The position numbers and the translations under genes are program-made. From Sphingomonas cannabina (GTDB lineage: Bacteria > Pseudomonadota > Alphaproteobacteria > Sphingomonadales > Sphingomonadaceae): a stretch of 64,000 nt of DNA. Of this stretch, positions 3,411 to 58,730 are shown in pieces (position 1 is the stretch's first letter; the number at the start of each line of letters is the position of its first letter). The stretch spans positions 3,643,001 through 3,707,000 of the forward strand of contig NZ_CP090059.1 of the NCBI RefSeq assembly GCF_021391395.1, written 5' to 3'. The notes under the pieces are model-generated. The model ran no database searches, had not been told where the DNA came from, and was given only the letters and a program-made list of their open reading frames with translations.

Positions 3411-3758
3411 CGGACCCGTCCCGGCTGGCGCCCCGCCGCTACCATGGCCGGCGCGGCGGCGGCTGAAAACCGGTGCCGGCGGACATGGCGGAATTTCGCG
3501 GTTTGCGGGGAGGACGGCACTGTCCGCGACGCGGCAGTGCCGCAACTTTCCAAGAAAAACGATGTACAGGCAATGGCTTGCGGCACCAGAGGTGCCGGCG
3601 CTTTATCTTGCCTTCCGTGCTCTCCCCGTGCACCACGCTCCAGGAGGCACCTCGTCAGCCCTCGATCCGCGGCATTGCAGGCAGGCGTATCCCCCTTGCG
3701 GCGCCCGGCGACATGGGACAGCCTCTGCGACCGGACTGCTCGTGGGAGGGCCGGTCGC
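3411..3758. promoter_or_regulatory. Non-coding region upstream of relaxase: candidate oriT
   Basis: 348 bases between the divergent relaxase and DUF1905 genes with no convincing gene. Two hairpins are visible. The arms GGCACTG (3516-3522) and CAGTGCC (3535-3541) enclose CCGCG/CGCGG with one bulged base. CGGCACC (3581-3587) pairs with GGTGCCG (3591-3597) around a 3-base loop. Inverted repeats beside a relaxase gene are what an origin of transfer looks like, but no nick site can be named from sequence alone. Confidence 0.4.
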
Positions 3759-7343: not shown

Positions 7344-7448
7344 ATGCAGGCGGCACGGATGAAGCGGCGGCTGTTCTATTTCGAGGTGGCCGTCATCGGC
7401 GCGCTCCTGCTTCTCAGCCTCGGCCTTTCGGTCGCTGCGCTGTTCTGA
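7344..7448 (+). CDS. Very small membrane protein (uncertain)
   Basis: 34 residues: a basic N-terminus (QAARMKRRLFYF) followed by one hydrophobic helix (VIGALLLLSLGLSVAALF) up to the stop. GGGAG sits just before the first ATG. Short single-span proteins of this type are easily missed; the only support is hydropathy and the ribosome site. It lies just upstream of the DUF6961-like gene. Confidence 0.33.
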   Translation: MQAARMKRRLFYFEVAVIGALLLLSLGLSVAALF

Positions 7449-7505
7449 TGCCGGTTCCCCCGCGTTGCATTTTGCACTCGACCGATCGCGGCATATCGTC
7501 GGGCG

Positions 7506-7694
7506 ATGACACGGGATCAGGAGCTGTGGGCCTGCGCGTTGACGCTGGAGCGGCAGTTTGGCGAGCGGGCGCCGCGCTACGTCGCCGAGCGACTGGGTGC
7601 CGCGGCGCTCGCGGGCGATGACACTGGTGTCGCGACGATGACGGCGATCGCCGCGAAGCTGGAGATGCTCCGAACAGCGACGCCCTCGGCCTGA
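7506..7694 (+). CDS. DUF6961-like small protein
   Basis: 62 residues, MTRDQELWACALTLERQFG, then RYVAERLGAAALAGDDTGVATM and a short helix. The layout (conserved Trp near position 8, ERLGALALAGD motif) matches small sphingomonad proteins grouped as DUF6961. Function unknown; probably all helical and cytoplasmic. The next 120 bases hold no gene. Confidence 0.6.
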   Translation: MTRDQELWACALTLERQFGERAPRYVAERLGAAALAGDDTGVATMTAIAAKLEMLRTATPSA

Positions 7695-7818
7695 GCGTCC
7701 AATGGGCCAACCTCTCGCCGTCCACCTCGGGATCTTTCTTATGCCTGATCGGGAATCGTCGTCCGGAGGCGATAGTCATTCAGAACCGAAGCCGCGGAGC
7801 AAATATATCCAAGCATGG

Positions 7819-8418
7819 CTAGCGCGATGACAAGCGAACGAAGATCGCGCTCGCTGCCGTGGGAGACGGCGCTTCAGGCTGCGACACCGCCGCGCCGTTG
7901 ATCCGAACGAAGATCGTTGTTGGGTGCGACGGCATGATAGGCTTGTCCGCGACGCTCGCGACGTAGGCGACGGTTTCGCCCGGCAGGGGGCGCCCCGCCG
8001 CGAGGTGCTCGGCGTAGCGGCCGGGTCCGGCATTGTAGGCGGCGAAGCAGCCCGGATAGCCGAACCGGTCGTACATGAGCCGGAGGTAGTAGGTGCCGGC
8101 GAGGATGTTGTCGCGCGGGTCGTGCGGATCGTGGCCGAGGCCGAGCCGGGCGCGCATCTCCGCCCAGGTGCCGGGCATCAGCTGCATCAGCCCCATCGCG
8201 CCGGCATGGCTGGTGATCGGACGGCCGTTCAACCTGGTCCGGCCGCCGCTTTCCGCGATCATCACGCGCTCGATCCACGCGGCCGGAAGGCCGAACCGCG
8301 CCGCGGCTTCGGCGATATGGACGCGCCAGGGCGCGAGCGGGTCGGCGCCGGCCGGCGCCGCGGCGAACAGCGCCGCAGCAGTCGCCACGGTCCTTGCGAG
8401 CCGGTTCAGCGCGGCCAT
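7819..8418 (-). CDS. Lytic transglycosylase (SLT domain), conjugation-associated
   Basis: 199 residues: signal peptide (AAALFAAAPAGADP), then an SLT domain with catalytic Glu in WIERVMIAESGG, GAMGLMQLMPGTW, DPRDNILAGTYYLRLMYDRFG and AAYNAGPGRY. It should cut peptidoglycan so that a transfer channel can be assembled (VirB1/TrbN-like role). The start at 8418 overlaps the end of the TraF-like gene by 13 bases, so the two are co-transcribed. The C-terminal 30 residues are Ser/Ala-rich and not part of the domain. Confidence 0.87.
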   Translation of the reverse strand: MAALNRLARTVATAAALFAAAPAGADPLAPWRVHIAEAAARFGLPAAWIERVMIAESGGRTRLNGRPITSHAGAMGLMQLMPGTWAEMRARLGLGHDPHDPRDNILAGTYYLRLMYDRFGYPGCFAAYNAGPGRYAEHLAAGRPLPGETVAYVASVADKPIMPSHPTTIFVRINGAAVSQPEAPSPTAASAIFVRLSSR

Positions 8419-8978
8419 AGCAAGGTCGCCCTGCCGAGCACCAGCCGGGCATCGCTCGGCCCGAAATAGCGCCCGTCGAACGAGTCCGGCCGCGCGCGGT
8501 TGAGCAGCAGCAGCTCGCCAGGGCGCAGCTGCCGGCAGCCCTCCCACCACGGCAGCGGACGGCCGCGGCGGTCGCGTTCGCGGCGCAGCACCATGGCCTG
8601 GCCGTTGACCGTGAGCACGCGCCCGCGCGCGCAGACCAGGTCGCCGGCGACCGCGCCGATCTGCTTCACCGCCGGCACATTACGCGGGAGGTAGCGGCGC
8701 CGCGCGGCAAGCGCGGCCGCCTCCTCGGGCAGCCGGGTCGCAATTAGGTCACCGGGTGCGACCGCCGCGCCGGAATCGATCCAATAGAGGCCGATCGGCG
8801 CGCTGGCGCTGGCGTTCCAGACCAGGCGCGGCGTCGGCGGGAAGATGATGGTGTGGCCGAGCGCCGCGACGCCGGCGCCGAGCAGCGCGGCGCGGCGGCG
8901 CAGGCGAGTACGGCGTCGCCGGGCGGCGCGCAGCGCCTCGCCCCAGGCGATGAGCGGCAGGTCGCGGCGCTCAGCCAT
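8406..8978 (-). CDS. traF: TraF-like S26 family signal peptidase
   Basis: 190 residues. One membrane helix near residues 25-45, then the S26 catalytic region with Ser in NASASAPIGLYWI and Lys in NVPAVKQIGAVAGD, and the closing strands RPGELLLLNRARPDSFDGRYFG. In conjugative systems this peptidase matures or cyclises pilin. Start at 8978 (MAERRDLP) gives the family N-terminus; it overlaps the HTH gene by eight bases. Order HTH-traF-transglycosylase forms one minus-strand operon. Confidence 0.85.
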   Translation of the reverse strand: MAERRDLPLIAWGEALRAARRRRTRLRRRAALLGAGVAALGHTIIFPPTPRLVWNASASAPIGLYWIDSGAAVAPGDLIATRLPEEAAALAARRRYLPRNVPAVKQIGAVAGDLVCARGRVLTVNGQAMVLRRERDRRGRPLPWWEGCRQLRPGELLLLNRARPDSFDGRYFGPSDARLVLGRATLLWPR

Positions 8979-9195
8979 GGTCCGTCTCCGCCCCTCGCGC
9001 CGCCGACCAAGCATCGATGTCGTCGATATGGAAGCGCAGCGAGCGGCCGTGCTTGCGGGCGCGTGGGCCCGCCTTCCTCGCCCGCAGCGCCTTCAGCGTC
9101 GCCGGGGAGATGCCGAGATAGAAGGCGGTCTGCTTGGTGGTGAGGAACGGCGAGGCCTCGCGCGCCCGCTGCGCGCGATCGTCGGGGTCGCTCAT
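8971..9195 (-). CDS. AlpA-like helix-turn-helix protein
   Basis: 74 residues with the MerR/excisionase-type winged helix: FLTTKQTAFYLGISPATLKALRARKAGP, then RFHIDDIDAWSAAR. Proteins of this size in integrative elements act as transcription regulators or recombination directionality factors. It is the first gene of the traF operon and could be its regulator. Start at 9195 (MSDPDDRAQ). Confidence 0.78.
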   Translation of the reverse strand: MSDPDDRAQRAREASPFLTTKQTAFYLGISPATLKALRARKAGPRARKHGRSLRFHIDDIDAWSAARGAETDHG

Positions 9196-9356
9196 GGTGA
9201 GGTTCCGTCGTGGCGCCGGGCGCCCGATTGCGCCCGTGGCACCCCGACCTGCCCCAGGCCGGACCGGTCCGGCAGGGTCGCACATGGCTATCGGCGATTG
9301 CGACCCTCCCCCGTCGAAGAGCTCCCGCGCCGGGGCCGGCGCGGGAGCGCATCCGC

Positions 9357-9683
9357 TCAGTCGAGCGGATTCCAGATGACGGCGAGAACGTCCTCGTCGT
9401 CCTGGCCGGCGGCGCGGCCGAGGTTGGCGTAGATCCGCCGCGGGCCGAACTCGGGCGCGGCGATGCTGAGCGAGGTGTAGGGCTTGCCCGAGGCCTCGCC
9501 GATCCGGTTCCAGCCGCCGCCGACCTCGGCATCGCCGAGATAGACCCGGTAATCGGGCTGGGCCTCGGTCCGCTTCTCGGCATTGGGCACGATCTCGATG
9601 CGGACCGGACGGCTCATCGTCGGGGTCTTGAACACGCCCTTGAAGCCATCGGCGGTGCGGGTGACGGTTCCGAGTGCAGGCAT
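9357..9683 (-). CDS. DUF736 family protein
   Basis: 108 residues. MPALGTVTRTADGFKGVF, VRIEIVPNAEK, PDYRVYLGDAEVGGGWNRIGE and YTSLSIAAPEFG are the DUF736 pattern. This small beta-rich family is a regular cargo or backbone gene of alphaproteobacterial plasmids and ICEs; function unknown. AAGGAG lies eight bases before the ATG. The long region upstream (9707-10035) is non-coding and highly structured. Confidence 0.88.
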   Translation of the reverse strand: MPALGTVTRTADGFKGVFKTPTMSRPVRIEIVPNAEKRTEAQPDYRVYLGDAEVGGGWNRIGEASGKPYTSLSIAAPEFGPRRIYANLGRAAGQDDEDVLAVIWNPLD

Positions 9684-9706
9684 TTCAACGTCTCCTTGGC
9701 TTGGTG

Positions 9707-10035
9707 CGCCCGGACCCGTTCCGGGCGACGGGCGGACCTGAGGGACGGCGTCAGCCGGGACGGCGAACCCTGAGGGCCGCAGCGGCAGCGGAGGACCGGA
9801 GCCCCAGGCTGATTTGAGAGCGCAGCGGCCGCGAGGAGCCCGTGGCAATCACCCGCGCGGCCTGTCGCGCGGGGTGATCGCGGGCGGGGAAATCAGCCGC
9901 CGGGCGATGGTTTTGCGGGCCCCGGCGGCCGTTCCAGGTCAGCGCCCGAGGAGCCGGAACCGGGCCCGGCCGCACGCCAGGGACAGGAGGCGCCGCCGCG
10001 GGACCTAGCCGCGCTGCCGGCCCAACGGCCTGTCA
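9707..10035 (-). ncRNA. Structured leader C upstream of DUF736
   Basis: Read on the minus strand into the DUF736 gene. Visible stems: CGCCCGGA/TCCGGGCG (9707-9714 and 9720-9727); GGCTGATTT/AAATCAGCC (9807-9815 and 9890-9898), enclosing the near-perfect ATCACC...GGTGAT hairpin at 9848-9878. Plus-strand motifs AGGGCCG (9773-9779), CGGAGGA (9789-9795) and CTAGC (near 10005) match motifs in leaders B and D in the same order, so this looks like a longer relative. No gene fits this stretch. Confidence 0.45.
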
Positions 10036-10134
10036 TAGCGCACGCGACGCCAGCACCGGCCCGCAAGGGTTTGCGCCGATTGCCGCGACGCAGCCCGGAC
10101 GATATCGCGACCGTCTTCGCGCGGAGGGGAGCGG

Positions 10135-10578
10135 ATGGAACCGGATCATGGCAGGGAACGCAGCCTATTGCCATCGGCGCGGCGCGTGGCGTTCGGCCTC
10201 GCGGCGCTGATCCTCGCCACGGCGGCGGCGGACGAGCGCGGCCGGATCGCCTATGTCACCGACGGCGACACCGTGCGGCTCGAAAGCGGCGAGCGTATCC
10301 GGATCGCCGGCATCGACGCGCCGGAAATCCACCGCGGCCAAGCGCGCTGCCGCGCCGAGCTGGCGCGTGGCAGGGCTGCCGCCGAGCAGGCGCGCGCGCT
10401 GCTCGGCGGGCGCGTGGTGTCGATCGCACGCGTCGGGCGCAGCTATGACCGCACCGTTGCGAGGTTGCGCCTCGATGGCCGCGACGTCGCGGCCGAGCTG
10501 GTGCGGATCGGTGCGGCACGATGGTGGCCGCGCGGACGGGCAAAGCCCTCCTGGTGCGGACGGGCGGCGCAGCGCTGA
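10135..10578 (+). CDS. Staphylococcal-nuclease-like (SNase) protein
   Basis: 147 residues with a hydrophobic N-terminal segment (RVAFGLAALILATAAA), then VTDGDTVRLESGERIRIAGIDAPE, RAAAEQARALLGGRVVSI and the conserved YDRTVARLRLDGRDVAAELVRIGAARWW. The Asp-Gly-Asp-Thr and the Asp in IDAPE are the metal-site residues of thermonuclease. Probably an exported DNA/RNA nuclease; such genes are frequent near transfer genes. The C-terminus is short but complete for the domain. Confidence 0.83.
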   Translation: MEPDHGRERSLLPSARRVAFGLAALILATAAADERGRIAYVTDGDTVRLESGERIRIAGIDAPEIHRGQARCRAELARGRAAAEQARALLGGRVVSIARVGRSYDRTVARLRLDGRDVAAELVRIGAARWWPRGRAKPSWCGRAAQR

Positions 10579-10765
10579 CCGCGGGCACGTGCAGCAGCCT
10601 TCGAACGCGTTTCCGCCCGGCGACGGGCCCCGTCGACCGGTGGCCGCACATCCCGCAACGGCATGAGAACGAAAGTGCCGAGCCTGTGGGCGCGCGCCGG
10701 CCGGCAAGGAGCATGTGTTGCAGCGGGCTTGCGTATTCGTTCCTTTTTTGTTCTTGATGCACACC

Positions 10766-10978
10766 ATGACGCGACTCGATTCGGACCTGCTCGGCACCAT
10801 CGCGCGCGCGATCGAGGAGGCGCCGCTCAGCTATCGCCAGGGCCTGGCATCGGCCAACGACCGGCAACGGTTGCGGGCGGCGGATGCGCTGGCCGGCTGG
10901 ATCGGTGCGACCCTCGCCGCGCCGGCCGCACACCATGACGTACAGCTGGCGCTGCCGATCGACGAGCGGATGGGTTGA
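10766..10978 (+). CDS. DUF6771-like small protein
   Basis: 70 residues from MTRLDSDLLGTIARAIEEAPLSYRQGLASANDRQRLRAADALAGWI, an all-helical protein resembling the DUF6771 family of sphingomonads. An ATG nine bases earlier is also possible; neither has a clear ribosome site. Function unknown. Confidence 0.5.
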   Translation: MTRLDSDLLGTIARAIEEAPLSYRQGLASANDRQRLRAADALAGWIGATLAAPAAHHDVQLALPIDERMG

Positions 10979-11038
10979 GCGCCGGGCGGGCGCCGGAACG
11001 ACCGGCGGACCGCCTCGGAGATCACGGCATTCCGCCCC

Positions 11039-11085
11039 GGACCGGCCGTTCGCCGCGACGCCGGCGCCGCGCGAACGGCCGGTCC
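11039..11085. repeat. Perfect 15-bp inverted repeat
   Basis: GGACCGGCCGTTCGC at 11039-11053 is the exact reverse complement of 11071-11085, with a 17-base spacer. It lies in the gap (10979-11259) between convergent genes, where no ORF is supported. It has no T-run, so it is not a classical intrinsic terminator, though it may still end transcription from both sides. Confidence 0.5.
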
Positions 11086-11259
11086 CGTGCTTCGACCGCC
11101 TGGACGCCGCGAGCCGGCACGGCGCCGCGCGATGATGCGGTGGGCAACCTTGCGAACCGGGATCGGCGGAAGCCCGTTCCCGGCCCCTGGTGACGCCTGG
11201 CGCCAGTGATCCGGGCGCTCACCGCATTATCGCGGGGGGCTTGCGGGACGGGAGAAGCG

Positions 11260-11685
11260 TCAGGCCGCGAGCGACAGCCGCACGTCGAGGCCGTTGCGGG
11301 CGAGGTGCGAATAGGGGCAGACGACATGCGCTTGGTCGACCAGCTCGCGCGCGACCTCGGGATCGACGCCGGGCAGCGCGATCGTCAGCGCGACATCGAG
11401 GCCGAAACCCTGGCCGTCGTCGCGCTTGCCGATGCCCACGGCAGCGGTGACGGTGCTGTCCTCGGCGATCGTCACCTTGCGCTGGCTCGCGACGAACTTG
11501 AGCGCGCCGAGGAAGCAGGCGGCATAGCCGGAGGCGAACAGCTGCTCGGGATTGGTGCCTTCGCCGCCGGATCCGCCGAGCTCCTTCGGCGTGACGAGCG
11601 CGACGCTGAGCGCACCGTCGGCGGTGCGGGCTTGGCCGGTGCGGCCGCCGGTGGCGGTGGCTTGGGTACGATAGAGAATGTTCAT
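11260..11685 (-). CDS. ohr: Organic hydroperoxide resistance protein (Ohr/OsmC family)
   Basis: 141 residues, full length for Ohr. Both reactive cysteines are present: the peroxidatic one in SGYAACFLGAL and the resolving one in HVVCPYSHLARN; the Arg/Glu of the active site lie in the N-terminal half. It reduces organic peroxides using lipoylated partners in the cytoplasm. It is divergent from a MarR-family gene with palindromic sites between them, the standard Ohr/OhrR arrangement. Confidence 0.93.
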   Translation of the reverse strand: MNILYRTQATATGGRTGQARTADGALSVALVTPKELGGSGGEGTNPEQLFASGYAACFLGALKFVASQRKVTIAEDSTVTAAVGIGKRDDGQGFGLDVALTIALPGVDPEVARELVDQAHVVCPYSHLARNGLDVRLSLAA

Positions 11686-11701
11686 CGCTCTGCTCCTTTA
11701 T

Positions 11702-11779
11702 TATCTACGATAACATTTATCGCGATATCCTTTGTTACCGCGCGCCCTTCTGAGTCGCAAGATAAATCTTATCGCGATA
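11702..11779. promoter_or_regulatory. OhrR operator sites in the ohr-ohrR intergenic region
   Basis: The 10-bp palindrome TATCGCGATA occurs exactly at 11718-11727 and again at 11770-11779, each in the wider form TTATCGCGATAT. A third, weaker TATC-TAC-GATA sits at 11702-11712, right before the ohr start. The sites are AT-rich islands in GC-rich DNA and flank both promoters, fitting repression of both genes by OhrR until peroxide oxidises it. Confidence 0.75.
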
Positions 11780-11826
11780 TGTATTTTTGCGAAAAGGCCG
11801 CTAATATCAGTGGCGAGGAGCCTGCC

Positions 11827-12312
11827 ATGACCGACACATCCGATGTGCCGCTGCCGCTGGATGACCAGCTGTGCTACGCGATCTACTCGGCGGGGATCGC
11901 CGTCCAGCGGCTCTACAAGCCGCTGCTCGACGAGCTCGGGCTGACCTATCCGCAATATCTGGTGCTCAATGTCCTGTGGCGGGAGGATGCGCAGACCGTC
12001 GGCGGGATCGCCGAGCGGCTTGCTCTTGAGTCGAGCACGCTCACCCCGTTGCTGAAGCGGCTGGAAGCGGCGGGGCTGGTGCGCAGGGCCCGCAATCCGG
12101 ACAACGAGCGGCAAGTCGTGGTCGAGCTGACCGCGCGCGGCCGGGCGCTCCGCCCGCGGGCCGGTTGCCTCGGCGAAGCCTTGCTGAAGGCATCCGGCCA
12201 ATCGGCGAGGCAGCTCGGCGAGCTGAACCGGGGCGTGCGGCGGCTTCGCGACGCGCTCTACGACGTCATCGGCAAATGGGGCGCGCGCACGCCCGACCGG
12301 GCGGAATCCTGA
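11827..12312 (+). CDS. ohrR: MarR-family peroxide-sensing repressor OhrR
   Basis: 161 residues. The N-terminal LDDQLCYAIYSA holds the single reactive cysteine of OhrR; LTYPQYLVLNVLW, TVGGIAERLALESSTLTPLLKRLEAAGLV and RARNPDNERQVVVELT form the MarR winged helix and wing. GGAG lies before the ATG. Partner and target is the divergent ohr gene through the TATCGCGATA sites. Confidence 0.9.
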   Translation: MTDTSDVPLPLDDQLCYAIYSAGIAVQRLYKPLLDELGLTYPQYLVLNVLWREDAQTVGGIAERLALESSTLTPLLKRLEAAGLVRRARNPDNERQVVVELTARGRALRPRAGCLGEALLKASGQSARQLGELNRGVRRLRDALYDVIGKWGARTPDRAES

Positions 12313-12480
12313 ACCTGCGGCCTGGCCGCCGCCGGCCAAACGAACGGCGGTGCGTTGCGAGGCCGTGCCGGCGGGCGGAAAGACGTCGGCGGCCGGCTTC
12401 GGGCATGTGAGAAGGGCAGAACGCGGCCATGCGGCCCGCCACGATCTCGGCTCGGGGTTGGCGGCAAACAGCCGTCTGCG

Positions 12481-12894
12481 TCATCCGCCGGGCGGCGGAA
12501 GCTCGTCGTCATTGGCGGGCGCGCGGCGGCGGAGGCGCGCGAGCAGCGTTTCGGCCTCGCGGATCGAGCCGCAGCGGCGTGCCGCTTCGATCCAGACCGA
12601 CAGCGGCACATCGCTGGCGAACAGGAGATCGCGTTCCAGGCGCAACCCCAGCGGAAGTCGCACCGCGCGCAGCTCGGCGAGATTGAACGTGCCGAGCTCG
12701 GGGGTGCCGAAGCCGAGATCGGCGAGGCCGAACAGGGTATCGCCGTCCGGATAGAGTTCGGTCGCGAGCCATGTCGCGGCCCCGAGCGGGTTGAAGAACC
12801 TGACGACCGGCGGCGGGTCGAAGTCCTCGTCGATGCGGGCGCGCTCGGCATTAGCGGTGAGCCGCGCGCGCAAGGCGGGAATGAGGAGGATCAT
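12481..12894 (-). CDS. DUF2958 domain protein
   Basis: 137 residues. PPVVRFFNPLGAATWLATEL, DTLFGLADLGFGTPELGTFNLAELRAVR and LGLRLERDLLF are the DUF2958 pattern. The family always travels with mobile-element genes and its function is unknown. The start overlaps the stop of the ArdC-like gene (ATGA at 12891-12894), so the two are translationally coupled in one operon. Confidence 0.88.
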   Translation of the reverse strand: MILLIPALRARLTANAERARIDEDFDPPPVVRFFNPLGAATWLATELYPDGDTLFGLADLGFGTPELGTFNLAELRAVRLPLGLRLERDLLFASDVPLSVWIEAARRCGSIREAETLLARLRRRAPANDDELPPPGG

Positions 12895-13928
12895 GCCGCG
12901 ATCCTTCCCGCGATGGCGTCGGCGTTCGCCTCGCGGTGGCGCGCGAGCAGCCAATCGGCGGCTTTGCTGGCTAGGCTGGCGGCGCGGAAGATCGCGCGCC
13001 CGCGCGGGCCCGCCATGCTCCGGACGGCGGGGTCGTCGCTGAGGTCGGCGCGCAGCACCTCCAGCCAGCTGGCGATATAGTCCGAATGCCGGACGGTCGG
13101 CACGATGCCAAGCGCGGCGCACAGGAAGGCCGAACCCATCTCGGCGACCAGCTCCTCGCGGGCATAGCCCTTGCTCCCAAAGGCGTGACCGAGGTCGCGC
13201 CCGAGCCGCTTGGCGTGGCCGGTGGCGTGGGTCAGCTCGTGGAGGACGGTGCGGTAGTAGTTGACCTGCTCGAAGAAGGCGGGTTGCGGCGGGACGACGA
13301 CATGGTCCGGCCCCGGCGCGTAATAGGCCTGGGCCCCCTGCACGACGACGCGAACGCCGCTCGCCGCGATCACCGCTTCGGCGACGGGCACGATCTCGCG
13401 CTCGGGGAGCGGCACCGGCTCGGGCGCAAGGCCGGGGCGCAGCCCGTCGCACTGCGCGATGTTGAACAGGGTCGAGCGCCTGAGGAACGGCACGTGTTTC
13501 GGCTCGTCCCCGCTGTCCCGGGCGCGTTCGCGCTCTGCGGCGGGGATGAAGCGATCGGCATAGACGATGCCGACGCCGCGCTCGCCCTTGCGCACGCAGC
13601 CGCCCGCCTGGATCGCCTGACGGAAGGTCAGCCAGCATTGCGATGCATAGCCCCTGGCGAACAGCTCGCCCCACAGAGTGAGGATGTTGATGCCCGAATA
13701 GGGACGGCCGGTGAGTGCGTTGCGTGGCAGGCCGACCGCGGCGGCGGCCGAGCCATCGGGTGCACTCCAGGGCGTCACCCACGGAACGGTGCCCGCCTCC
13801 AGCTCGGCGATGATGCGCTGCGTCACCTCGACGTAGAGGCGTCCCCGGTCGGTCTCCCCGGAGGCAGCGCGGCGCGCGCCACCCTTGCGGCGGCCGGGCC
13901 CGGCACGGGACAGGCGGGTTGATGTCAT
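12891..13928 (-). CDS. ArdC-like zincin metallopeptidase (antirestriction family)
   Basis: 345 residues from the ATG at 13928. N-terminal ssDNA-binding part (YVEVTQRIIAELEAGTVPWVTPW, GRPYSGINILTLW, WLTFRQAIQAGG, RKGERGVGIVYADRF), then the zincin half with the zinc site HELTHATGHAKRLGR and GYAREELVAEMGSAFLCAALG. ArdC proteins bind single-stranded DNA and protect incoming elements from restriction. A decayed second copy lies at 62.5-63.6 kb and both have the same structured leader upstream. Confidence 0.88.
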   Translation of the reverse strand: MTSTRLSRAGPGRRKGGARRAASGETDRGRLYVEVTQRIIAELEAGTVPWVTPWSAPDGSAAAAVGLPRNALTGRPYSGINILTLWGELFARGYASQCWLTFRQAIQAGGCVRKGERGVGIVYADRFIPAAERERARDSGDEPKHVPFLRRSTLFNIAQCDGLRPGLAPEPVPLPEREIVPVAEAVIAASGVRVVVQGAQAYYAPGPDHVVVPPQPAFFEQVNYYRTVLHELTHATGHAKRLGRDLGHAFGSKGYAREELVAEMGSAFLCAALGIVPTVRHSDYIASWLEVLRADLSDDPAVRSMAGPRGRAIFRAASLASKAADWLLARHREANADAIAGRIAA

Positions 13929-13972
13929 CGCTTTCCTCCTCCCCGCCCGAAAAACCCCCAGGGCCCCGGCCG

Positions 13973-14132
13973 AAAGGGGTGGGCGGCGAGAGCGACCGGA
14001 GAGGCGCGCCGCAGGCGCCGCCGGCACCCAAGCCGGAGGCGCAGGGCCGGAATGCAATGGAGGAGCCGGGGCGTCAGCCCGGCTTGCCGGCAGCGCGGGC
14101 GCGCCTAGCAGGGAGCGCCGCCCACCCCCTTT
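13973..14132 (-). ncRNA. Structured leader B upstream of the ArdC-like gene
   Basis: Closing arms GGGGTGGGCGGC (13976-13987) and GCCGCCCACCCC (14117-14128) are exact reverse complements 153 bases apart at their outer ends. The interior has GC-rich hairpins and the motif GCAGGGCCG...TGGAGGA (14041-14064), plus CTAGC at 14105-14109. Leader D at 63.7 kb has the same stem, the same motifs in the same order and nearly the same length. It ends about 45 bases before the start codon. Confidence 0.6.
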
Positions 14133-14185
14133 GGCCGCGGCCCGTCCAGACAAGCGCCATCGCGCGGCACGCGCGATGACCGCAT

Positions 14186-14236
14186 GCAGGGGCCGGATGG
14201 GCCCCTGCCCCATGCATCAGCGACATGCATCAGCGA
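14186..14236. repeat. Hairpin followed by a 13-bp tandem repeat
   Basis: GCAGGGGCC (14186-14194) pairs with GGCCCCTGC (14200-14208). Immediately after, CATGCATCAGCGA occurs twice head to tail at 14211-14223 and 14224-14236. The stretch 14133-14560 otherwise holds no gene I can support. Confidence 0.5.
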
Positions 14237-14560
14237 CCGTCACCCGAAGGGCCGAGACGCGGAATTGGCGCGGCTCGGTGCAGCTTGGCGAACGCGCCCG
14301 AAAGGGTAAGTCTAGCGGAATAGAGCGCGGTCCGGCTCCCGGCCGGAGACGCCGATCGCGACGGCGCGCCCGAATGCTCCACTGCCAGCCGCCGCAAAGC
14401 AAGGATGTCTCATGGCCGATCCCATTGGCCATGACATCGCGCCCGACCTTGCCAGGTCGGTTCCCGGGCGGAGATCAGCGAATGGGAGCGTCAGCACCGT
14501 TGCGGGCACGGCCGGCCAATGCCACCCTCGTTGGCGATCGGTTCGTCTTGGGGGACGGTG

Positions 14561-15127
14561 ATGATTCGGCGTCGTCAGTTTTTCGGCCTGACCGCGACGG
14601 GACTGGGCATGCTCTGGTCCGGATCGGAGGCAGCGGCGTGCACGCTCGTGGCCGTCAACCGCGCACCGTTCAGGGATCGCATGTGCCGCCGCGCGCTGGC
14701 CGAGTTCGTGGCACTGCTGAACGACGCCCCTTCGCTCCCGGTGGAGGACGTGTTGCGGCGCAAGGACGAGATCGGGGTCTGGATCGAGGAGGGGTGGGTC
14801 GACGACCGGCTGGGCGAGGAGCGCTCGAACAAGGACGCCGATCGCCAATACACGTTCGTCCGGGAATTTCGCCTGTCGGCCGGCATTCTCGATCCCAGGC
14901 CGATCGAGATCGACGGCATCAACCTGGTCCGCCGGCTGGGCAACCGGGCGACCTATCAGTTCACCCTCAAGCGCTACGCCTACCATCCTGCCGACCCTGA
15001 AGGATGCAACGGCCTGTTCGTCCACGACGAGTATTACGGCGATGATCGCCTGTCGTGCCTGGCTACATTCTCGGCCAATCATCTGAAGACCGTCCGCCGG
15101 TTTCCCGAATGGTATCTCGAGGCGTAG
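14561..15127 (+). CDS. Exported hypothetical protein with Tat-like signal
   Basis: 188 residues starting MIRRRQFFGLTATGLGMLW: a twin-arginine-type n-region and hydrophobic core, ending near EAAAC. The mature part has RRALAEFVALLNDAP, a Trp/Glu-rich middle and GLFVHDEYYGDDRLSCLATF; no known domain. GGGGGACGG precedes the start. It stands alone between the ArdC leader and the toxin-antitoxin pair. Confidence 0.6.
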   Translation: MIRRRQFFGLTATGLGMLWSGSEAAACTLVAVNRAPFRDRMCRRALAEFVALLNDAPSLPVEDVLRRKDEIGVWIEEGWVDDRLGEERSNKDADRQYTFVREFRLSAGILDPRPIEIDGINLVRRLGNRATYQFTLKRYAYHPADPEGCNGLFVHDEYYGDDRLSCLATFSANHLKTVRRFPEWYLEA

Positions 15128-15170
15128 GACGGGAGCACTGCTCAGCCCGCCCGGATTGAAATGGCCGGCC

Positions 15171-15189
15171 AATAGGATTAAATCCTATT
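15171..15189. promoter_or_regulatory. ParD autoregulatory operator (candidate)
   Basis: AATAGGATT and AATCCTATT form a 9-bp inverted repeat around a single A, 19 bases before parD. Antitoxins of this type bind such palindromes to repress their own operon. Confidence 0.6.
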
Positions 15190-15207
15190 CCCTGAAGGGA
15201 CAGAGGA

Positions 15208-15486
15208 ATGCGCTCGACCCAGCAATTCAGCGTGACGCTGCCGAACGAGATGGCGGCCCAGGTGCGCGCCAAGGTCGCCTCGGGCGAATATGCCAGCGAA
15301 AGCGAGGTCATCCGGGACGGCCTGCGGGCGCTCCAGGCGCGCGACCGCGCCGTCGAAAGCTGGCTCCGCAACGAAGCGCTGCCCGCCTACGACGCCTACA
15401 AGGCCGACCCGCAGCGCGGGCTGTCGCTCGATGAGGTGAAGGCCGGGCTTGCCAAGCGGCACGAGCGGGCCGCCCGGCGCGACTGA
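15208..15486 (+). CDS. parD: ParD-type antitoxin (ribbon-helix-helix)
   Basis: 92 residues: QQFSVTLPNEMAAQVRAKVASGEYASESEVIRDGLRAL is the ribbon-helix-helix DNA-binding domain, followed by a charged C-terminus that would wrap the toxin. The toxin gene begins two bases after its stop. It should neutralise ParE and repress the operon via the palindrome at 15171-15189. Confidence 0.9.
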   Translation: MRSTQQFSVTLPNEMAAQVRAKVASGEYASESEVIRDGLRALQARDRAVESWLRNEALPAYDAYKADPQRGLSLDEVKAGLAKRHERAARRD

Positions 15487-15488
15487 GC

Positions 15489-15797
15489 ATGGCCACGCGC
15501 ATCGTCGTCACGCCCGAGGCGCGTGACCAGATTGACGCGATCTACGACTATATCGCCGAGGCAGCCTCGCCGGAGATCGCCCGGCGCTTCACCGACGGGA
15601 TCGTCGATCACCTGGCGAAGCTCGCCGACCATCCCCGCATCGGAACGCCACGCGACGATCTTCGGCCTGGCCTGCGCACTTTGGCCCATCGCCGCCGCGT
15701 GACGATCGCCTTCATAGTTGAGGACGCGGCCGTGGTCGTCATCGGCTTCTATTATGGCGGGCAGGATTTCGAGAGCTTGCTGCGCGACGAGTCCTGA
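15489..15797 (+). CDS. parE: ParE/RelE-superfamily toxin
   Basis: 102 residues: VVTPEARDQIDAIYDYIAEAASPEIARRFTDGIVDHLAKLADHPRIGTPRDDL and a hydrophobic C-terminal strand pair, the ParE fold. Family members poison DNA gyrase. In operon with parD; likely stabilises the mobile element. Confidence 0.9.
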   Translation: MATRIVVTPEARDQIDAIYDYIAEAASPEIARRFTDGIVDHLAKLADHPRIGTPRDDLRPGLRTLAHRRRVTIAFIVEDAAVVVIGFYYGGQDFESLLRDES

Positions 15798-15819
15798 TGC
15801 CGATGCCGGGTTCGCGTTC

Positions 15820-16350
15820 TTACCAGAGAGGGGTGAACGCCACGCCCACCAGCCCGGAATTGCGGACGCGGGCGACGAACTGGTCGGTTACGAAGACCGG
15901 AGATGCCCGCATCGGCAGCTTGAAGACCTCCGAGGCGCCGATCACGTCGGCCTTGAATGCATAGTCTTCGATCGCGAGGATGCTGCCGTCGTCGAAACGG
16001 ACGATCCGGGCACGCTCCTCGTCCAATGCGTCTAGCACGTTCGTGACATTGTAGAGCCACGCATCGCCCTCGCCCTGGAGCGGCAAGAACTGACCATATC
16101 GCAGCGCGACGTCGCCGAGCCTCTCTATCGCCCGCCGACGGAAGATCGGCGCATGTTCTCCGAGCCAGGGGAAATCCGAATATGCTCTCGGACGGCCGCT
16201 CTCATCGTGCGTCAGGAGCGTCATCTCCGGCGGGTCCCAATCTTGAACGGCGCGGCCATCCAAGGAGAAGAAGCGCTCGAATTCCTCGCCGTCGACCGGA
16301 AGGAGCCACTCGTGACCGTCGACACCTTCGAAACAATAGATTCGATTCAC
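15820..16350 (-). CDS. Imm11-like (DUF1629) immunity-family protein
   Basis: 176 residues from a GTG at 16350 preceded by GAGGCAGG; an ATG 36 bases further up is possible. The C-terminal VFKLPMRASPVFVTDQFVARVRNSGLVGVAFTPLW is the signature end of the Imm11 family, which pairs with polymorphic toxins. No toxin gene is adjacent, so it may be an orphan immunity gene. The link to Imm11 rests on that C-terminal pattern. Confidence 0.6.
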   Translation of the reverse strand: MNRIYCFEGVDGHEWLLPVDGEEFERFFSLDGRAVQDWDPPEMTLLTHDESGRPRAYSDFPWLGEHAPIFRRRAIERLGDVALRYGQFLPLQGEGDAWLYNVTNVLDALDEERARIVRFDDGSILAIEDYAFKADVIGASEVFKLPMRASPVFVTDQFVARVRNSGLVGVAFTPLW

Positions 16351-16534
16351 GTGCCTGCCTCGTGATTGAGACCTCCATCGGTCCATCGATGTCTATCGCA
16401 CGGCCACGACAGGAATAGCGAACCTGGGCCGGGGCCCGGCCGATCTGGCCGACCGGCGCTCGCCAGCAGACGATCCGTGAACCAGGACGGTCCTGGGCGG
16501 CGATCGTTGCGCTCAGGCTGAGCGGATCGGGACG

Positions 16535-17369
16535 TCAGGCGCCGGGTCGTTCGTCAATCTTCCGTGCTCGCGAACAGCCGCGCACCATCAATGCCAGATA
16601 GTCCCCGCGTGCCATGCGCCGGGCATCGGCGACAAGGCGGCGCACGCGCGAGCGCAGCGATTCCGAGTCCCCGCGCCATTCGGTGGCGACGCGATCGCGT
16701 CCGACCAGGATCTCGGCGATCTCGCGCTGGCTGGCACCGTCGGCGAGCGCGTCATGCACCCGCAGCATGGCGATCCAGCGGCCGGCCTGCCGGTCAGGCG
16801 GGAACAGCGACGCCGGGAAGCGGCGGTGCCGATAGAGGTGGAGAAATCGTCGCAGCGCCAGCAGGGGCGGCGCGACACGCCGGACGCCGGAGAGCCGATA
16901 GCGCAGCAACACCGGCCGGTCGCCCAGCAGCGTGCCGCCATCGACCTCGAGACGGATGCGGCGCTTGCCGTCGGTCAGGACGGCGTGCTCGATTCCATCA
17001 CCATCGGACACCGCTACCAGCCAGCCCCGCAGTACGGACGGCTCGACGCGCTCGGGATCGTCGGCGGAGGTCGGCACCGCCTCGAGGCGGAGCACGGCCG
17101 GATCGAGATCGGCACGCCAGATCAACCGGGCCTCCGGCGCCGCCACGTCCGGATTCTCGGCGAAAGTGAAGCCCCCAACGGATCGGGTCGACACCGGGCG
17201 CCACGCTGCCGGCGCTGCCCCGGGTCGCGGTGCTCGCCCGCGCGTACCAGGCAATGTAACCGGGGTCGCGGCGCAGCCACTCCCACATGATCCCGGCGCG
17301 GTCGATGCCGGCCAAGGCCGCGTAGGCTCGCCCGTCGCGCCAATTCTCGACCGGCCCCGACCCGCCCAT
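16535..17369 (-). CDS. Split DUF6499-DUF2285 protein, FseA-like, needing a +1 frameshift
   Basis: Two frames overlap. From the ATG at 17369 the frame gives VENWRDGRAYAALAG and MWEWLRRDPGYIAWYARAS (DUF6499), then DPIRWGLHF and nonsense. The +1 frame from the same point reads FTFAENPDVAAPEARLIW on through HLYRHRRFPASLFPPDRQAGRW and SQREIAEILVGRDRV (DUF2285) to 16535. The switch is at a G5 run (17172-17176, codons TGG GGG CTT). In ICEMlSymR7A, two such frames are joined by programmed +1 frameshifting to make FseA, which activates excision. Sequencing error or decay are the alternatives. Confidence 0.65.
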
Positions 17370-17478
17370 CGGGCGCTATCCGGCATCCCGCTGGCCAGGC
17401 ACCCGCCAATGGCTGCTGCAACCGGGCATAGTCCCCGCGGAGCCGGCGAGCCGATTTTCTCTGGAATCCAAGTTGCGG

Positions 17479-17493
17479 GAATCATATTCTCGA
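17479..17493. promoter_or_regulatory. AT-rich dyad in the split-gene/luxR intergenic region
   Basis: GAATCATATTCTCGA sits between the two divergent genes. Nearly the same word, GAATATATTCTCGA, lies before the lasso precursor at 20573-20586. The GAAT/ATTC arms form a small dyad. This suggests one regulator acts on both; which one is unknown. Confidence 0.35.
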
Positions 17494-17612
17494 GGTTCGG
17501 GCCTCGCCCGGCGTTGAATTGAGACATCAACGCGCGCTGGCGAACAGCTGGAAAGGACGATCGCCGGGCAAGGGGCGGCTTGAGACGCCGCTCGCGGTCG
17601 TAGAATTGACGG

Positions 17613-18380
17613 ATGGTCTTGTTGCCCTTGGTCGACGACTTCGTCCGGGCGGTCGGACGTGTTCAATCCGCCCCGGACCTGCATACGATCCTGGCGTTCT
17701 TCACCGCCGAAATGGGGTTTCACTTCTTCGCGCTCACGCACCATGTCGACATGCTGAAGGCGGGCCACACCGCGATCCGGGTGCACGACTATCCCGAGGA
17801 GTGGGCCGAGTTCTTCGACCGCAGTGCGCTCGGTCCCACCGACCCGGTGCACCGCGCGAGCCACGTGACCAGCGTCGGCTTTGCCTGGTCGGAGCTTCCT
17901 ACCCTGATCACGATGACCGCCGGCGACCGGCGTGTCCTCGAGCTCGCGGGCAGGCACGGCATCGGCGAGGGCTATACGGTGCCGGCCAACGTGCCGGGCG
18001 AGTCCAACGGCTCGGTCTCCTTCGCAATGCGCGCCGGCACGCCGCTGCCGCGGTGCATGCGTCCGGCCGCGCAGCTCATCGGCGCCTTCGCCTTCGAGGC
18101 CGCGCGCAAGCTCTGGCGGGTGCGCACGCCCAGGACCGGGCTGCCTACGCTCACCGACCGTCAGCGCGACTGCCTGATCTGGGTCGCGCGCGGCAAGTCG
18201 GACTGGGAGATCAGCCGCATCCTCGGCGTCACCGAAGGAACGGTGGTGCGCCACGTCAAGCAGGCTCGCGAGCGCTATGGGGTGCAGAAGCGGACATCGC
18301 TCCTCATGCAGACGTTGCTGGACGGAACGATCAGCCTCGCCGACGCCGCGCAGTGGCGCTATTCCCATTTCTGGGAATAG
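17613..18380 (+). CDS. LuxR-family quorum-sensing regulator
   Basis: 255 residues. The autoinducer-binding domain has the conserved Trp and Asp-Pro pattern in EEWAEFFDRSALGPTDPVH and VGFAW; the C-terminal HTH is LTDRQRDCLIWVARGKSDWEISRILGVTEGTVVRHV. It should bind an acyl-homoserine lactone made by the downstream LuxI. It is divergent from the FseA-like gene, the same topology as quorum-controlled ICEs. Its stop codon lies inside a perfect inverted repeat. Confidence 0.88.
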   Translation: MVLLPLVDDFVRAVGRVQSAPDLHTILAFFTAEMGFHFFALTHHVDMLKAGHTAIRVHDYPEEWAEFFDRSALGPTDPVHRASHVTSVGFAWSELPTLITMTAGDRRVLELAGRHGIGEGYTVPANVPGESNGSVSFAMRAGTPLPRCMRPAAQLIGAFAFEAARKLWRVRTPRTGLPTLTDRQRDCLIWVARGKSDWEISRILGVTEGTVVRHVKQARERYGVQKRTSLLMQTLLDGTISLADAAQWRYSHFWE

Positions 18381-18382
18381 CG
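18357..18382. promoter_or_regulatory. Perfect 11-bp inverted repeat at the end of luxR
   Basis: CGCTATTCCCA (18357-18367) and TGGGAATAGCG (18372-18382) flank TTTC, and the luxR stop TAG is within the right arm. It lies 53 bases before luxI, so it could be a lux-box-like operator for luxI or a hairpin limiting read-through. There is no T-run. Confidence 0.5.
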
Positions 18383-18434
18383 GCGCGGCCGCCGGCGATG
18401 GACCTTGGCCTTCCGATCAACGGAGGGCCAAGCC

Positions 18435-19064
18435 ATGCTCCACATCCTCGATCATGCGGCCGACTGGCGCGAGGACGATCGCCTCTGCCGCATGTTCGCC
18501 GCGCGCAAGCGCGTCTTCATCGACCTGCTCAAATGGCAGGTGCCGGTGGTCGACGACTGCTACGAACGGGATCAGTTCGACGCACCGGGTGCCACCTACC
18601 TTGTCCTGACCGATCCCTCGGGCGCCCATCTTGCCTCGGCGCGGCTCCTGCCGACGATGCGGCCGCACATCCTCGGCGATCTCTATCCGCATCTGTGCGA
18701 GACGCCGCCGCCGTTCGGCCCCACCGTCTACGAGATCACGCGGTTCTGCCTCGACCGCCGCCTGCGCGCGCCGGCGCGGCGCGAGGCCCGCAACCGGCTG
18801 GTCTCGGCAATCGCCGAGTTCGGAGTGTGGCGCGGCGTCACCACCTACACCGGGGTCGCCGAGATCGGCTGGCTGCAGCAGATCCTGGCGTTCGGCTGGC
18901 GATGCCGGCCACTCGGCCTGCCGGTCGCCGAGCGCGGTGCGATGCTGTGCGCGCTCGCGATCGAGATCGATGCGGCGACACCGGCCCGGCTGCGCGACGC
19001 CGGCATCTATCGCCCGGTGCTCGTCGATCCTGTCGATACCGGGGAGCGCCGCCATGCCGCATGA
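18435..19064 (+). CDS. LuxI-family acyl-homoserine-lactone synthase
   Basis: 209 residues from the ATG at 18435, preceded by GGAGG. Conserved synthase residues are present: RKRVFIDLLKW (Arg, Phe, Trp), DQFDAPGATYLV (Asp), ASARLLPT (Arg) and YEITRFCLD (Glu-Arg). It makes the signal read by the LuxR upstream. The 3' end overlaps the dioxygenase gene by 11 bases. Confidence 0.9.
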   Translation: MLHILDHAADWREDDRLCRMFAARKRVFIDLLKWQVPVVDDCYERDQFDAPGATYLVLTDPSGAHLASARLLPTMRPHILGDLYPHLCETPPPFGPTVYEITRFCLDRRLRAPARREARNRLVSAIAEFGVWRGVTTYTGVAEIGWLQQILAFGWRCRPLGLPVAERGAMLCALAIEIDAATPARLRDAGIYRPVLVDPVDTGERRHAA

Positions 19065-19935
19065 CGCAGCACGGCGCGCCGGCGATCCGGTTGCGCAGTG
19101 GACGGAGCGGCTGCTGACGGACGGCTATGCGGTCATCCCCGGTGCCATGCCGCCGGAGGAGGTCGCGGCCATCGACGCCGAGCTCGGCGACGCGTTCGAC
19201 CAGACGCCGTTCTGCCAGGGCGGCTTCTATGGCACGCGCACCAAGCGGTTCGGCCGGCTGCTCGCGCGCACGATACGGGCCGCCGCGTTCGTCCAGCATC
19301 CGCTGGTCCTCGGTGTGGCGGAGCGTGTCCTGGCGCCCTGGTGCGATACGATCCAGCTCAATCTCACGCAGGCGATCGCGCTCCATCCCGGCGCGCTGCC
19401 GCAATTTCCGCACAGGGACCAGGACATGTGGCAGGGCGAGACCGGCCGCATCGAATATCTCGTCAACGTGATGTGGCCGTTCACCGGCTACACGACGGAG
19501 AACGGCGCGACATTGATCTGGCCGCACAGTCACGGGCCGCGCTGTCATGATCCCGAGCCGGTTGGCGAGCCGATCGTCGCCGAGATGGCGCCGGGCGCGG
19601 CGCTCATGTTCCTCGGTTCGACGCTGCACGGTGCCGGCGGCAACCGCTCGGCGACGGTCAGGCGCGGCATGATCGTCAGCTACTGCCTTGGCTGGCTGAA
19701 GCCGTACGAGAACCCATGGCTCGCCTATCCGCCCGAGGTGGCACGGCATTTCCCGCGCGAGCTCGCGGCGCTCGCCGGCTATCGTCAGCACCGCCCCAAC
19801 CTCGGCAACTATGAGGGGCAGTGCCCGTCGATCCTGCTCGACGGGTCGCCGGCCGAACCGCTCGGAGCGGTCGATGCGCTGCGGCCCGACCAGGCCGAGG
19901 GGGTGGCGGCGTTCGTCGCGAGCCAGCGCGCATGA
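19054..19935 (+). CDS. Phytanoyl-CoA-dioxygenase-family (PhyH) 2OG-Fe(II) oxygenase
   Basis: 293 residues. Facial-triad candidates are HRD in FPHRDQDMW and the His of STLHGAGGNRS, with the downstream Arg for 2-oxoglutarate; GYAVIPGAMPPEEVAAID is the usual N-terminal strand-helix. The substrate is unknown. The overlap with luxI means co-translation with the signal synthase, an unusual pairing; it could alter the signal or a metabolite under quorum control. Its stop overlaps the next ATG. Confidence 0.8.
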   Translation: MPHDAARRAGDPVAQWTERLLTDGYAVIPGAMPPEEVAAIDAELGDAFDQTPFCQGGFYGTRTKRFGRLLARTIRAAAFVQHPLVLGVAERVLAPWCDTIQLNLTQAIALHPGALPQFPHRDQDMWQGETGRIEYLVNVMWPFTGYTTENGATLIWPHSHGPRCHDPEPVGEPIVAEMAPGAALMFLGSTLHGAGGNRSATVRRGMIVSYCLGWLKPYENPWLAYPPEVARHFPRELAALAGYRQHRPNLGNYEGQCPSILLDGSPAEPLGAVDALRPDQAEGVAAFVASQRA

Positions 19936-20549
19936 ACTCCGGACAGACGTCGGGGCGCGTCTACGAGGCACTGCGGCTGCGCCTCACGGGCCGCGGCCTG
20001 CGGCCCGGCGCGCGCCTCGATCCCAACCTGCTGGCGGAGGAATTCGGCAGCAGCGTCACGCCGGTGCGCGACGCGCTGCACATTCTCGTCGGCGAGGGGC
20101 TGGTGGAGACCGGCCAGGGCGAGGGATTCCGGCTGCCGCACCTCGACGAGCCGGGCCTCAAGGATCTCTACGACTGGAACGGCGACTTGCTGCTGGCCGC
20201 ACTCCGGCGACGGGCGCCGGTGCCGGGCGAACTATCGCCGCAGGACATCGGCGACACGGCAGCGCTGACGGCGTCCGTGTTCTTCGCGATTGCCCATCGC
20301 TCGCGAAACCAGCTCCACCGGCTCGCGATGCGCTGGGCTAACGCGAAGCTGCATCCGACCCGGCTGGTCGAGACCGACATCCTGCCGGCGATCGCGGAGG
20401 AGGTGTCGGCGATCGCCGACGCGTTCGAGGCCCACGAGACCGCGGCGGTGCGGCGGATGATCGGCGCCTATCACGGCCGGCGCCAGCGCGTCGCGGCGGA
20501 GATCGTCCGGGGCCTGTATCGGGCTTCCGACGACGTCGCGATCCTATAG
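19932..20549 (+). CDS. GntR/FadR-family transcription regulator
   Basis: 205 residues. N-terminal winged helix RVYEALRLRLTGRGLRPGARLDPNLLAEEFGSSVTPVRDALHILVGEGLVE, then an all-helical FCD-like effector domain. The start overlaps the dioxygenase stop (ATGA). It is the last gene of the luxI operon and lies directly before the lasso promoter, so it may regulate the lasso cluster. Confidence 0.85.
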   Translation: MNSGQTSGRVYEALRLRLTGRGLRPGARLDPNLLAEEFGSSVTPVRDALHILVGEGLVETGQGEGFRLPHLDEPGLKDLYDWNGDLLLAALRRRAPVPGELSPQDIGDTAALTASVFFAIAHRSRNQLHRLAMRWANAKLHPTRLVETDILPAIAEEVSAIADAFEAHETAAVRRMIGAYHGRRQRVAAEIVRGLYRASDDVAIL

Positions 20550-20672
20550 TCCCGTGCCGCGGACAGCCGTCCGAATATATTCTCGATATAGAATCTGTAT
20601 AAGTTTCAACGTCATGCGGGAGATCGGTAGATTCGCCTCTGCTGCAATGCGCAGCAAGCAGGAGAGTGAATC
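20550..20672 (+). promoter_or_regulatory. Promoter region of the lasso peptide operon
   Basis: 123 bases, markedly AT-rich in its middle. It contains the palindrome GAATATATTC (20573-20582), the inverted pair ATTCT/AGAAT around CGATAT (20579-20594), and GGAGAG seven bases before the precursor ATG. The dyads are plausible operators for the adjacent GntR or LuxR proteins. Confidence 0.5.
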
Positions 20673-20792
20673 ATGGAACGCGAAGACGATGTGATCGATC
20701 TCGGCGTCGCCAGCGTCGAGACCCAGGGACCGGGGCAGCTCCCCGGGGACGAGGTCCTCGGGCGGATCGTGCCCGGACTTTCCGACGACTGA
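20673..20792 (+). CDS. Lasso peptide precursor (sphingonodin-like)
   Basis: 39 residues, below usual gene-finder limits. Leader MEREDDVIDLGVASVETQ has the required Thr at position -2. The core starts with Gly: GPGQLPGDEVL then GRIVPGLSDD, 21 residues. An isopeptide ring from Gly1 to Asp8 (8-membered) or Glu9 (9-membered) is possible; Arg13, Ile14 or Leu18 could be plugs. The GPG start and GLSDD end resemble known sphingonodins. B and C genes follow immediately. GGAGAG precedes the ATG. Confidence 0.85.
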   Translation: MEREDDVIDLGVASVETQGPGQLPGDEVLGRIVPGLSDD

Positions 20793-20795
20793 CCG

Positions 20796-58559: not shown

Positions 58560-58730
58560 GGCACTTCCCCTTGTTGAACTGGCCACGGCATTTCGGCCGA
58601 TGGCCGGGAGCGAACAGACACAGCTTCCCCGTCGCCCCGGCGCGCGCGGACGCTTTCACGAGTTCAGGAATTCAAATTCGGCTCGATGGAGAGGGCCGGG
58701 ATGAGCCTCAGCCCATCCGCCCTCCCAAAC

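Follow-up and report, generated by a model that had tools for sequence, protein, structure and literature searches.

A probable single-stranded DNA element on the T-strand, and putative entry promoter, upstream of ardC and other establishment genes of Alphaproteobacteria

Our analyses suggest that a short DNA stretch preceding anti-defence genes and further early genes of bacterial mobile elements is built to fold as a single strand, the state in which it passes between cells, forming a switch that turns these genes on at entry. The reading that we favor, with somewhat better than even confidence, is that of a single-stranded DNA element on the conjugative T-strand, probably a putative entry promoter of the Frpo type. 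The element was examined in a 64,000-nucleotide stretch of the Sphingomonas cannabina contig NZ_CP090059.1 (hereafter, the window), in which a first-pass annotation had described two copies, B and D, as an RNA family upstream of ArdC. That observation was confirmed, and the two copies belong to a large family; the interpretation placed on it was partly supported. The features of the window that bear on the element, all on the minus strand, are as follows.

13976 to 13988, minus strand: copy B, outer stem P0, gene-side arm (GGGGTGGGCGGCG)
14116 to 14128, minus strand: copy B, outer stem P0, upstream arm (CGCCGCCCACCCC)
14017 to 14094, minus strand: copy B, predicted core four-way junction (model R1, 50.4 bits)
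14017 to 14025, minus strand: copy B, P1, 3′ arm on the gene strand (partner 14086 to 14094; from alignment and sequence)
14086 to 14094, minus strand: copy B, P1, 5′ arm on the gene strand (followed by AA at 14084 to 14085)
14065 to 14083, minus strand: copy B, variable hairpin P2 (from sequence and alignment)
14047 to 14063, minus strand: copy B, Pb/Pa arm (CC-TCC-AT-TGC-AT-TCC-GG on the gene strand; from pair counts)
14027 to 14046, minus strand: copy B, P3 hairpin CCC...GGG (loop with an 11-nt insertion)
63739 to 63809, minus strand: copy D, predicted core four-way junction (model R1, 49.7 bits)
63695 to 63708, minus strand: copy D, outer stem, gene-side arm (from sequence)
63831 to 63845, minus strand: copy D, outer stem, upstream arm (from sequence)
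9760 to 9812, minus strand: weak third copy, possibly degenerate (23.4 bits; poor P1; contains TCCTCCGCTGCGCTGCGG)
12891 to 13928, minus strand: ArdC gene behind copy B (ORF and Pfam scan)
12481 to 12894, minus strand: DUF2958 gene after the ArdC gene of copy B (domain scan)
62940 to 63647, minus strand: ArdC-like gene behind copy D (homology split over two frames)
1431 to 3545, minus strand: relaxase (DUF3363 and MobA/VirD2-like), on the strand of copies B and D

The closing arms noted around copy B are present and are 13 bp long, not 12 bp, and copy D indeed has the same closing stem and the same internal words in the same order. The spacing of about 45 bases between the outer stem and the ArdC start also held (copy B, start at 13928, ∼45 bases; copy D, ATG at 63647, ∼48 bases). 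Because the genes lie on the minus strand, the words first given for the plus strand (GAGCG, GCAGGGCCG and TGGAGGA) are in template-strand writing. Allowing three mismatches or fewer, we found the 24-base word shared by the two copies at two places in the window and in 0 of 100 shuffles. RNA folding energies gave z-scores of −0.57 for copy B and −3.35 for copy D; as the fold energy of copy B is unexceptional, the case for structure rests on its relatives. Protein P0001 is an ArdC with ArdcN and MPTase-PolyVal domains, and the DUF3363 relaxase, an S26 peptidase, an SLT domain protein and the DUF2958 protein are encoded on the same strand as copy B. The ArdC-like gene at 62940 to 63647 looks interrupted, with no minus-strand ORF of 250 aa spanning the region. 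Elsewhere in the window, the segment 49723 to 50030 is directly repeated at 61051 to 61350, 11.3 kb away (93% over 90 nt and 86% over 65 nt), and in 52884 to 58586 both strands carry long ORFs over many imperfect repeats spaced at 21 nt.

To define the family, we scanned genome contigs for exact matches to the core word, which returned 68 stretches, mainly from Sphingomonadales, Rhizobium, Asticcacaulis and Caulobacter. Together with the two window copies, the resulting 70 core matches fall into 30 groups, one of which holds 23 near-identical copies. A covariance model, R1, was constructed from 20 masked fragments, with copies B and D left out of the 20-row seed, and in a search of 345 kb it recovered both copy B (50.4 bits, E = 1.5e-12) and copy D (49.7 bits, E = 2.3e-12). 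Four strong R1 copies are present in the host genome, the two besides B and D being located at 998480 and 1949387. Copies were found in 53 of 296 sampled genomes of the host order (R1, E ≤ 1e-5). At E ≤ 1e-3, R1 matched 23 of 385 class genomes, three of which look false, and at E ≤ 1e-4 it matched 29 of 398 phylum genomes, including two that fall outside the class; the order, class and phylum samples overlap. Over 179 sources, R1 gave 189 matches (104 + 85). The core spans ∼60 to 105 nt, and the outer stem lies within ∼160 nt. The three doubtful matches of the class sample (L099, L100 and L101; E of 5e-4 to 9e-4) are probably false, as their alignment shows no core, and one IMG/VR viral contig has the word without the fold, so that a phage element was set aside as a chance match. 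In several loci, multiple same-strand copies occur within a few kilobases before successive genes (L053 at 5932 and 7923, L106 at 7355 to 10727, and L107 at 10998 to 13622).

The Rfam comparison, which included the radC and STAXI families, matched no family: the window gave no match at gathering score, copy B none at E ≤ 5 and copy D two chance matches far under gathering, and in 10 related loci none of the listed matches overlaps the element. In the literature surveyed, within the parts of those papers available to us, we found no prior description of the element.

The predicted fold of the core is a four-way junction, which reads on the gene strand P1 - AA - P2 - T - Pb(CC) - TCC - Pa(AY) - UNC - Pa(RU) - UNC - Pb(GG) - P3(CCC UNC GGG) - U - P1′. 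The secondary structure covaries, in agreement with the conserved fold proposed for copies B and D. Specifically, alignment A5 (99 distinct rows), which was fitted to the pairs of R1, contains 17 pairs, 16 of which have changed on both sides. Double-change cells in A5 number 318 compared to a shuffled mean of 95.4; none of 500 shuffles reached 318, and slid versions gave at most 83. The two Pb pairs lie outside R1 and still keep Watson-Crick pairing, one in 156 and the other in 157 of 159 rows, and each shows three or four pair types, among them C-G, G-C and T-A. For the outer stem P0, own arms score at least 10 in 35 of 68 representatives versus 5.2% of swapped arms. Minimum free energy folding of the single copies B and D with DNA parameters did not show the complete junction. 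A hidden reading frame was rejected, since P2 lengths spread over all three classes modulo 3 (45, 37 and 52 of 134 elements) and loop lengths vary.

Structure in an mRNA is expected to favor G.U mismatches. To determine which strand folds, we counted P1 and P2 mismatches on the gene strand of 121 unique elements, obtained from the 189 matches by dropping 25 with no parsable core, 17 with no CAA, 13 in which P1 was misassigned (CAAGAAA type) and duplicates. There were 58 A.C mismatches versus 20 G.U. The excess persisted after similar rows were collapsed, a procedure that uses no tree (43 versus 17, p = 0.001), and in a count from the covariance-model alignment (65 versus 24). Because a G.T pair on the template strand reads as A.C on the gene strand, this excess points to the template strand. 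Consensus folding with RNAalifold gave the same picture: on the template strand P1, P3, Pb, Pa and P2 were all found (−9.65 for A5, −14.7 for A6), whereas the gene-strand fold contained P2 and P3 alone (−5.3 for A5, −7.2 for A6). As a control, 27 TPP riboswitches of related genomes leaned weakly in the opposite direction, with 5 G.U and 2 A.C, too few mismatches to carry much weight, and with consensus values of −14.7 for the sense and −13.3 for the antisense strand.

The loops further distinguish the strands. Of 189 rows, 142 have a Pa loop that reads TNC on the gene strand and a further 24 one that reads TNNC, and the P3 loop reads TNC in 132, which corresponds to GNA and GNNA on the template strand. 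In P2, where the stem varies freely, 32 of 48 triloops are GNA and 10 of 27 tetraloops are GNNA when read on the template strand; on the gene strand GNA and GNNA loops number 0, and UNCG 3 of 102. Control hairpins elsewhere in the same loci, in gene-strand reading, include 77 TNC and 47 GNA among 1053 triloops. The DNA loop d(cGNAg) has special stability. A title cited in PMC2984261 describes d(cGNNAg) as a selected stable DNA loop. Only 1 of the 10 P2 GNNA tetraloops is GNRA; the remaining 9 fit DNA better than RNA. The internal loop has four positions that read G, A, G and A on the template strand; one of them is constant in 103 and the other three in all 104 of 104 A5 rows, and the positions between them vary. 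We infer that sheared G.A pairing occurs here: two such pairs around a free pair would explain the constancy, and pyrimidine mismatches in the mRNA would not. The mismatch asymmetry, the strand-wise consensus folds, the loop types and the G and A positions thus point to selection for a structure on the strand complementary to the mRNA, rather than on the mRNA strand as the initial RNA-leader interpretation had held. A cruciform in double-stranded DNA was likewise rejected, since it would produce no preference for one strand.

We next analyzed the genes behind the element. Of 178 unique matches, 173 are followed within 320 nt by an ORF of at least 50 aa, at a median distance of 80 nt (quartiles 70 and 88), a spacing partly shaped by the scoring of start codons, which favored a Shine-Dalgarno match and a short distance. 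The clusters of following genes, named by Pfam scans of representatives, are ArdC (59), ParB_N (26), DUF736 (24), YAcAr (12), sigma-70 region 4 (8), HEPN/nucleotidyltransferase (5, with ORFs 240 to 303 nt away that may not be the first genes), DUF3768 (4), DUF2958 (4), and SSB and RadC as single cases, the rest being unnamed. The location upstream of ArdC therefore stood, and its restriction to ArdC did not, as at least 10 gene families follow the element.

The orientation of the element was compared with that of the relaxase genes on 22 plasmid records searched with R1, 20 of which hold 30 copies. All 26 placeable copies, on 18 plasmids, are on the relaxase strand and on the 5′ side of the relaxase; these plasmids share backbones and are not independent, and for one of the 26 placements an unannotated gene of pSWIT02 was assumed to be its second relaxase. 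The four unplaced copies comprise one beside relaxase fragments, two on pTK1, where the nearest relaxase was not located, and one on a plasmid without a relaxase. Two relaxase plasmids among those searched with R1 have no copy. The MOBP nick consensus is given as (C/T)ATCCTG(C/T) in the accessible part of one study (PMC3772185). Searching with T or G allowed at the fifth hexamer base, TATCC(G/T)G, we found a nick-like motif on the template strand upstream of mobC/relaxase in 18 of 19 regions; 17 of these sites are TATCCGG and one is exact (TATCCTGC, pCFD-2-3). An exact TATCCTG also occurs on the gene strand of three related plasmids, twice on one, and in the window region searched the motif is found on both strands and hence is uninformative there. 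In F and related plasmids, the leading-region genes are read from the T-strand, as stated in the sections available of PMC11541004. The T-strand would be the template of the genes behind the element if nicking takes place at the template-strand site. From the nick-like motifs and the analogy with F, we infer that the T-strand is probably the template strand.

These data are consistent with the following model, in which each copy would act as single-stranded DNA on the template strand of the following gene, that is, on the T-strand of conjugation. In a donor or resident cell the element would be double-stranded and inert. When the T-strand enters the recipient single-stranded, the element would fold into the four-way junction, consisting of P1, P3 with its GNA loop, Pb/Pa with positions of the sheared G.A type and a GNA or GNNA loop, and the variable P2, likewise with a GNA or GNNA loop; in most copies P0 would close the structure as a whole. 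The folded element may then provide a local duplex for host RNA polymerase, such that the next gene (encoding ArdC, SSB, a ParB-like protein, DUF736 or others) would be transcribed from the T-strand before second-strand synthesis. The promoter proposal derives from the position of the element ahead of every gene, the absence of an AT-rich upstream region and the spacing of two conserved features. Over the upstream 300 nt there is no marked AT-rich peak (26 to 39% in 15-nt bins; loci mean 36%). In 70% of 108 upstream arms, and in 55% of 38 representatives outside the B/D subfamily, the junction has TTG followed by an A 21 nt further on (the 24th base from the first T), a distance that resembles the spacing from −35 to −10. 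The hexamers otherwise match poorly, the base before the conserved A being C in 55% and T in 16% outside the B/D subfamily, and for this reason the promoter step stays a hypothesis.

The nearest rival to the promoter reading is a priming site, or ssi, in which the folded T-strand primes synthesis of the complementary strand and no promoter is involved. The same single-strand and T-strand evidence applies to it, and Frpo itself is described, in a title cited in PMC8708921, as a combined promoter and primer site. We nevertheless consider priming by itself unlikely, because priming would not require a separate copy before each of many different genes, oriented with the gene and within a narrow range of distances from it.

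Decidedly unlikely in our assessment is a cis-regulatory leader of the mRNA, for example one in which TCCTCC sequesters the ribosome-binding site. The element does lie a median of 80 nt before the start codon, its covariation is strong, the gene strand of copies B and D also folds well as RNA, and TCCTCC is complementary to ribosome sites of the GGAGGA type. However, an RNA leader or thermometer conflicts with the strand evidence, namely the excess of A.C over G.U on the gene strand, the recovery of just P2 and P3 in its consensus fold, and loop and internal-loop conservation that makes sense on the other strand; in addition, TCCTCC is not constant but covaries with its Pb partner. A structured antisense RNA from the template strand, or the leader of a divergent gene, would carry the structured strand, and by a crude ORF test the upstream neighbor is divergent in 36 elements. 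This reading is quite improbable, as the neighbor is tandem in 50 elements (75 being unclear and 12 too short), where no gene lies in that direction, the near absence of GNRA among the GNNA tetraloops is unlike RNA, and the expected start region in copies B and D, judged by eye, is GC-rich with no promoter-like sequence. Least credible is a mobile palindromic repeat copied before genes by transposition and lacking a regulatory role, to which the 23 near-identical copies among the 70 core matches, adjoining a three-integrase element on annotated plasmids, would lend themselves, but which conflicts with the fixed orientation and spacing before diverse genes and with the compensatory changes that keep the helices across many lineages.

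As a putative T-strand promoter, the element would work most like Frpo/ssi and EGeRS1, although we do not claim membership in Frpo. In the portions available of PMC11541004, Frpo/ssi sites are structured single-stranded DNA upstream of leading-region genes, for example ssb and anti-restriction genes, and those genes are read from the T-strand. The element likewise precedes ssb, anti-restriction and other establishment genes, and the leading genes of F point toward oriT, as here. R1 gave no match in the F leading region (53000 to 67000), so that this search provides no sequence tie to Frpo. In contrast to Frpo, the element is predicted to be a compact, GC-rich four-way junction with GNA loops and a weak −35/−10 resemblance, for which transcription is proposed. 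EGeRS1, from the Bacillus plasmid pLS20, is a structured sequence that recurs before ardC and further establishment operons, near the ribosome-binding site, within which its authors report finding no ordinary promoter, as far as the available part of their account extends (PMC8708921). Here too several copies precede ardC and other establishment genes, and the host genome holds four strong copies. The two were compared by description: EGeRS1 measures 420 to 750 bp and is found on Gram-positive plasmids (PMC8708921, in the part available), compared to ∼60 to 160 nt and Alphaproteobacteria for our element. A third likeness is to the STAXI motif, which the accessible text of PMC2864571 places near SSB, topoisomerase, anti-restriction and integrase genes and which its authors suggested may be single-stranded DNA. 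Unlike the element, STAXI is a pseudoknot repeated two or three times (PMC2864571, same portion), and no Rfam match was obtained here.

We give an even chance to the broader proposal that widespread T-strand elements, compact four-way junctions capped by GNA or GNNA loops and present only while the DNA is single-stranded, switch on an establishment regulon of Alphaproteobacteria, which in that case would comprise ArdC, SSB, ParB-like, DUF736, DUF3768, DUF2958, RadC, YAcAr and sigma-like genes. To our knowledge, single-stranded DNA promoters are known from few plasmids, and this would be the first single-stranded DNA regulatory element to have its strand assigned by comparative covariation. With a searchable model, the establishment regulon could be listed in thousands of genomes, and functions could be proposed for DUF736, DUF3768 and DUF2958 by their association with the element. 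More generally, loop types together with counts of A.C versus G.U offer a method to separate single-stranded DNA structure from RNA.

Two further observations concern insertions. A GC-rich hairpin, CCACCCC...GGGGACCCC, is inserted in element loops at tolerated places, in the P3 loop (L042 at 728 to 827, L157 at 1501 to 1595, and L020 from 7385) and in P2 (L023 at ∼2980 to 3015). The three-integrase element is flanked by ArdC-domain genes on plasmids of Sphingobium, Rhizorhabdus and Mesorhizobium (L246 at 13530 to 20458, L247 at 9119 to 16011, L249 at 11046 to 20457, L255 at 13527 to 20162, and L256 at 20190 to 27579), and the zincin genes there mostly have their own copy of the element, as if ardC were targeted.
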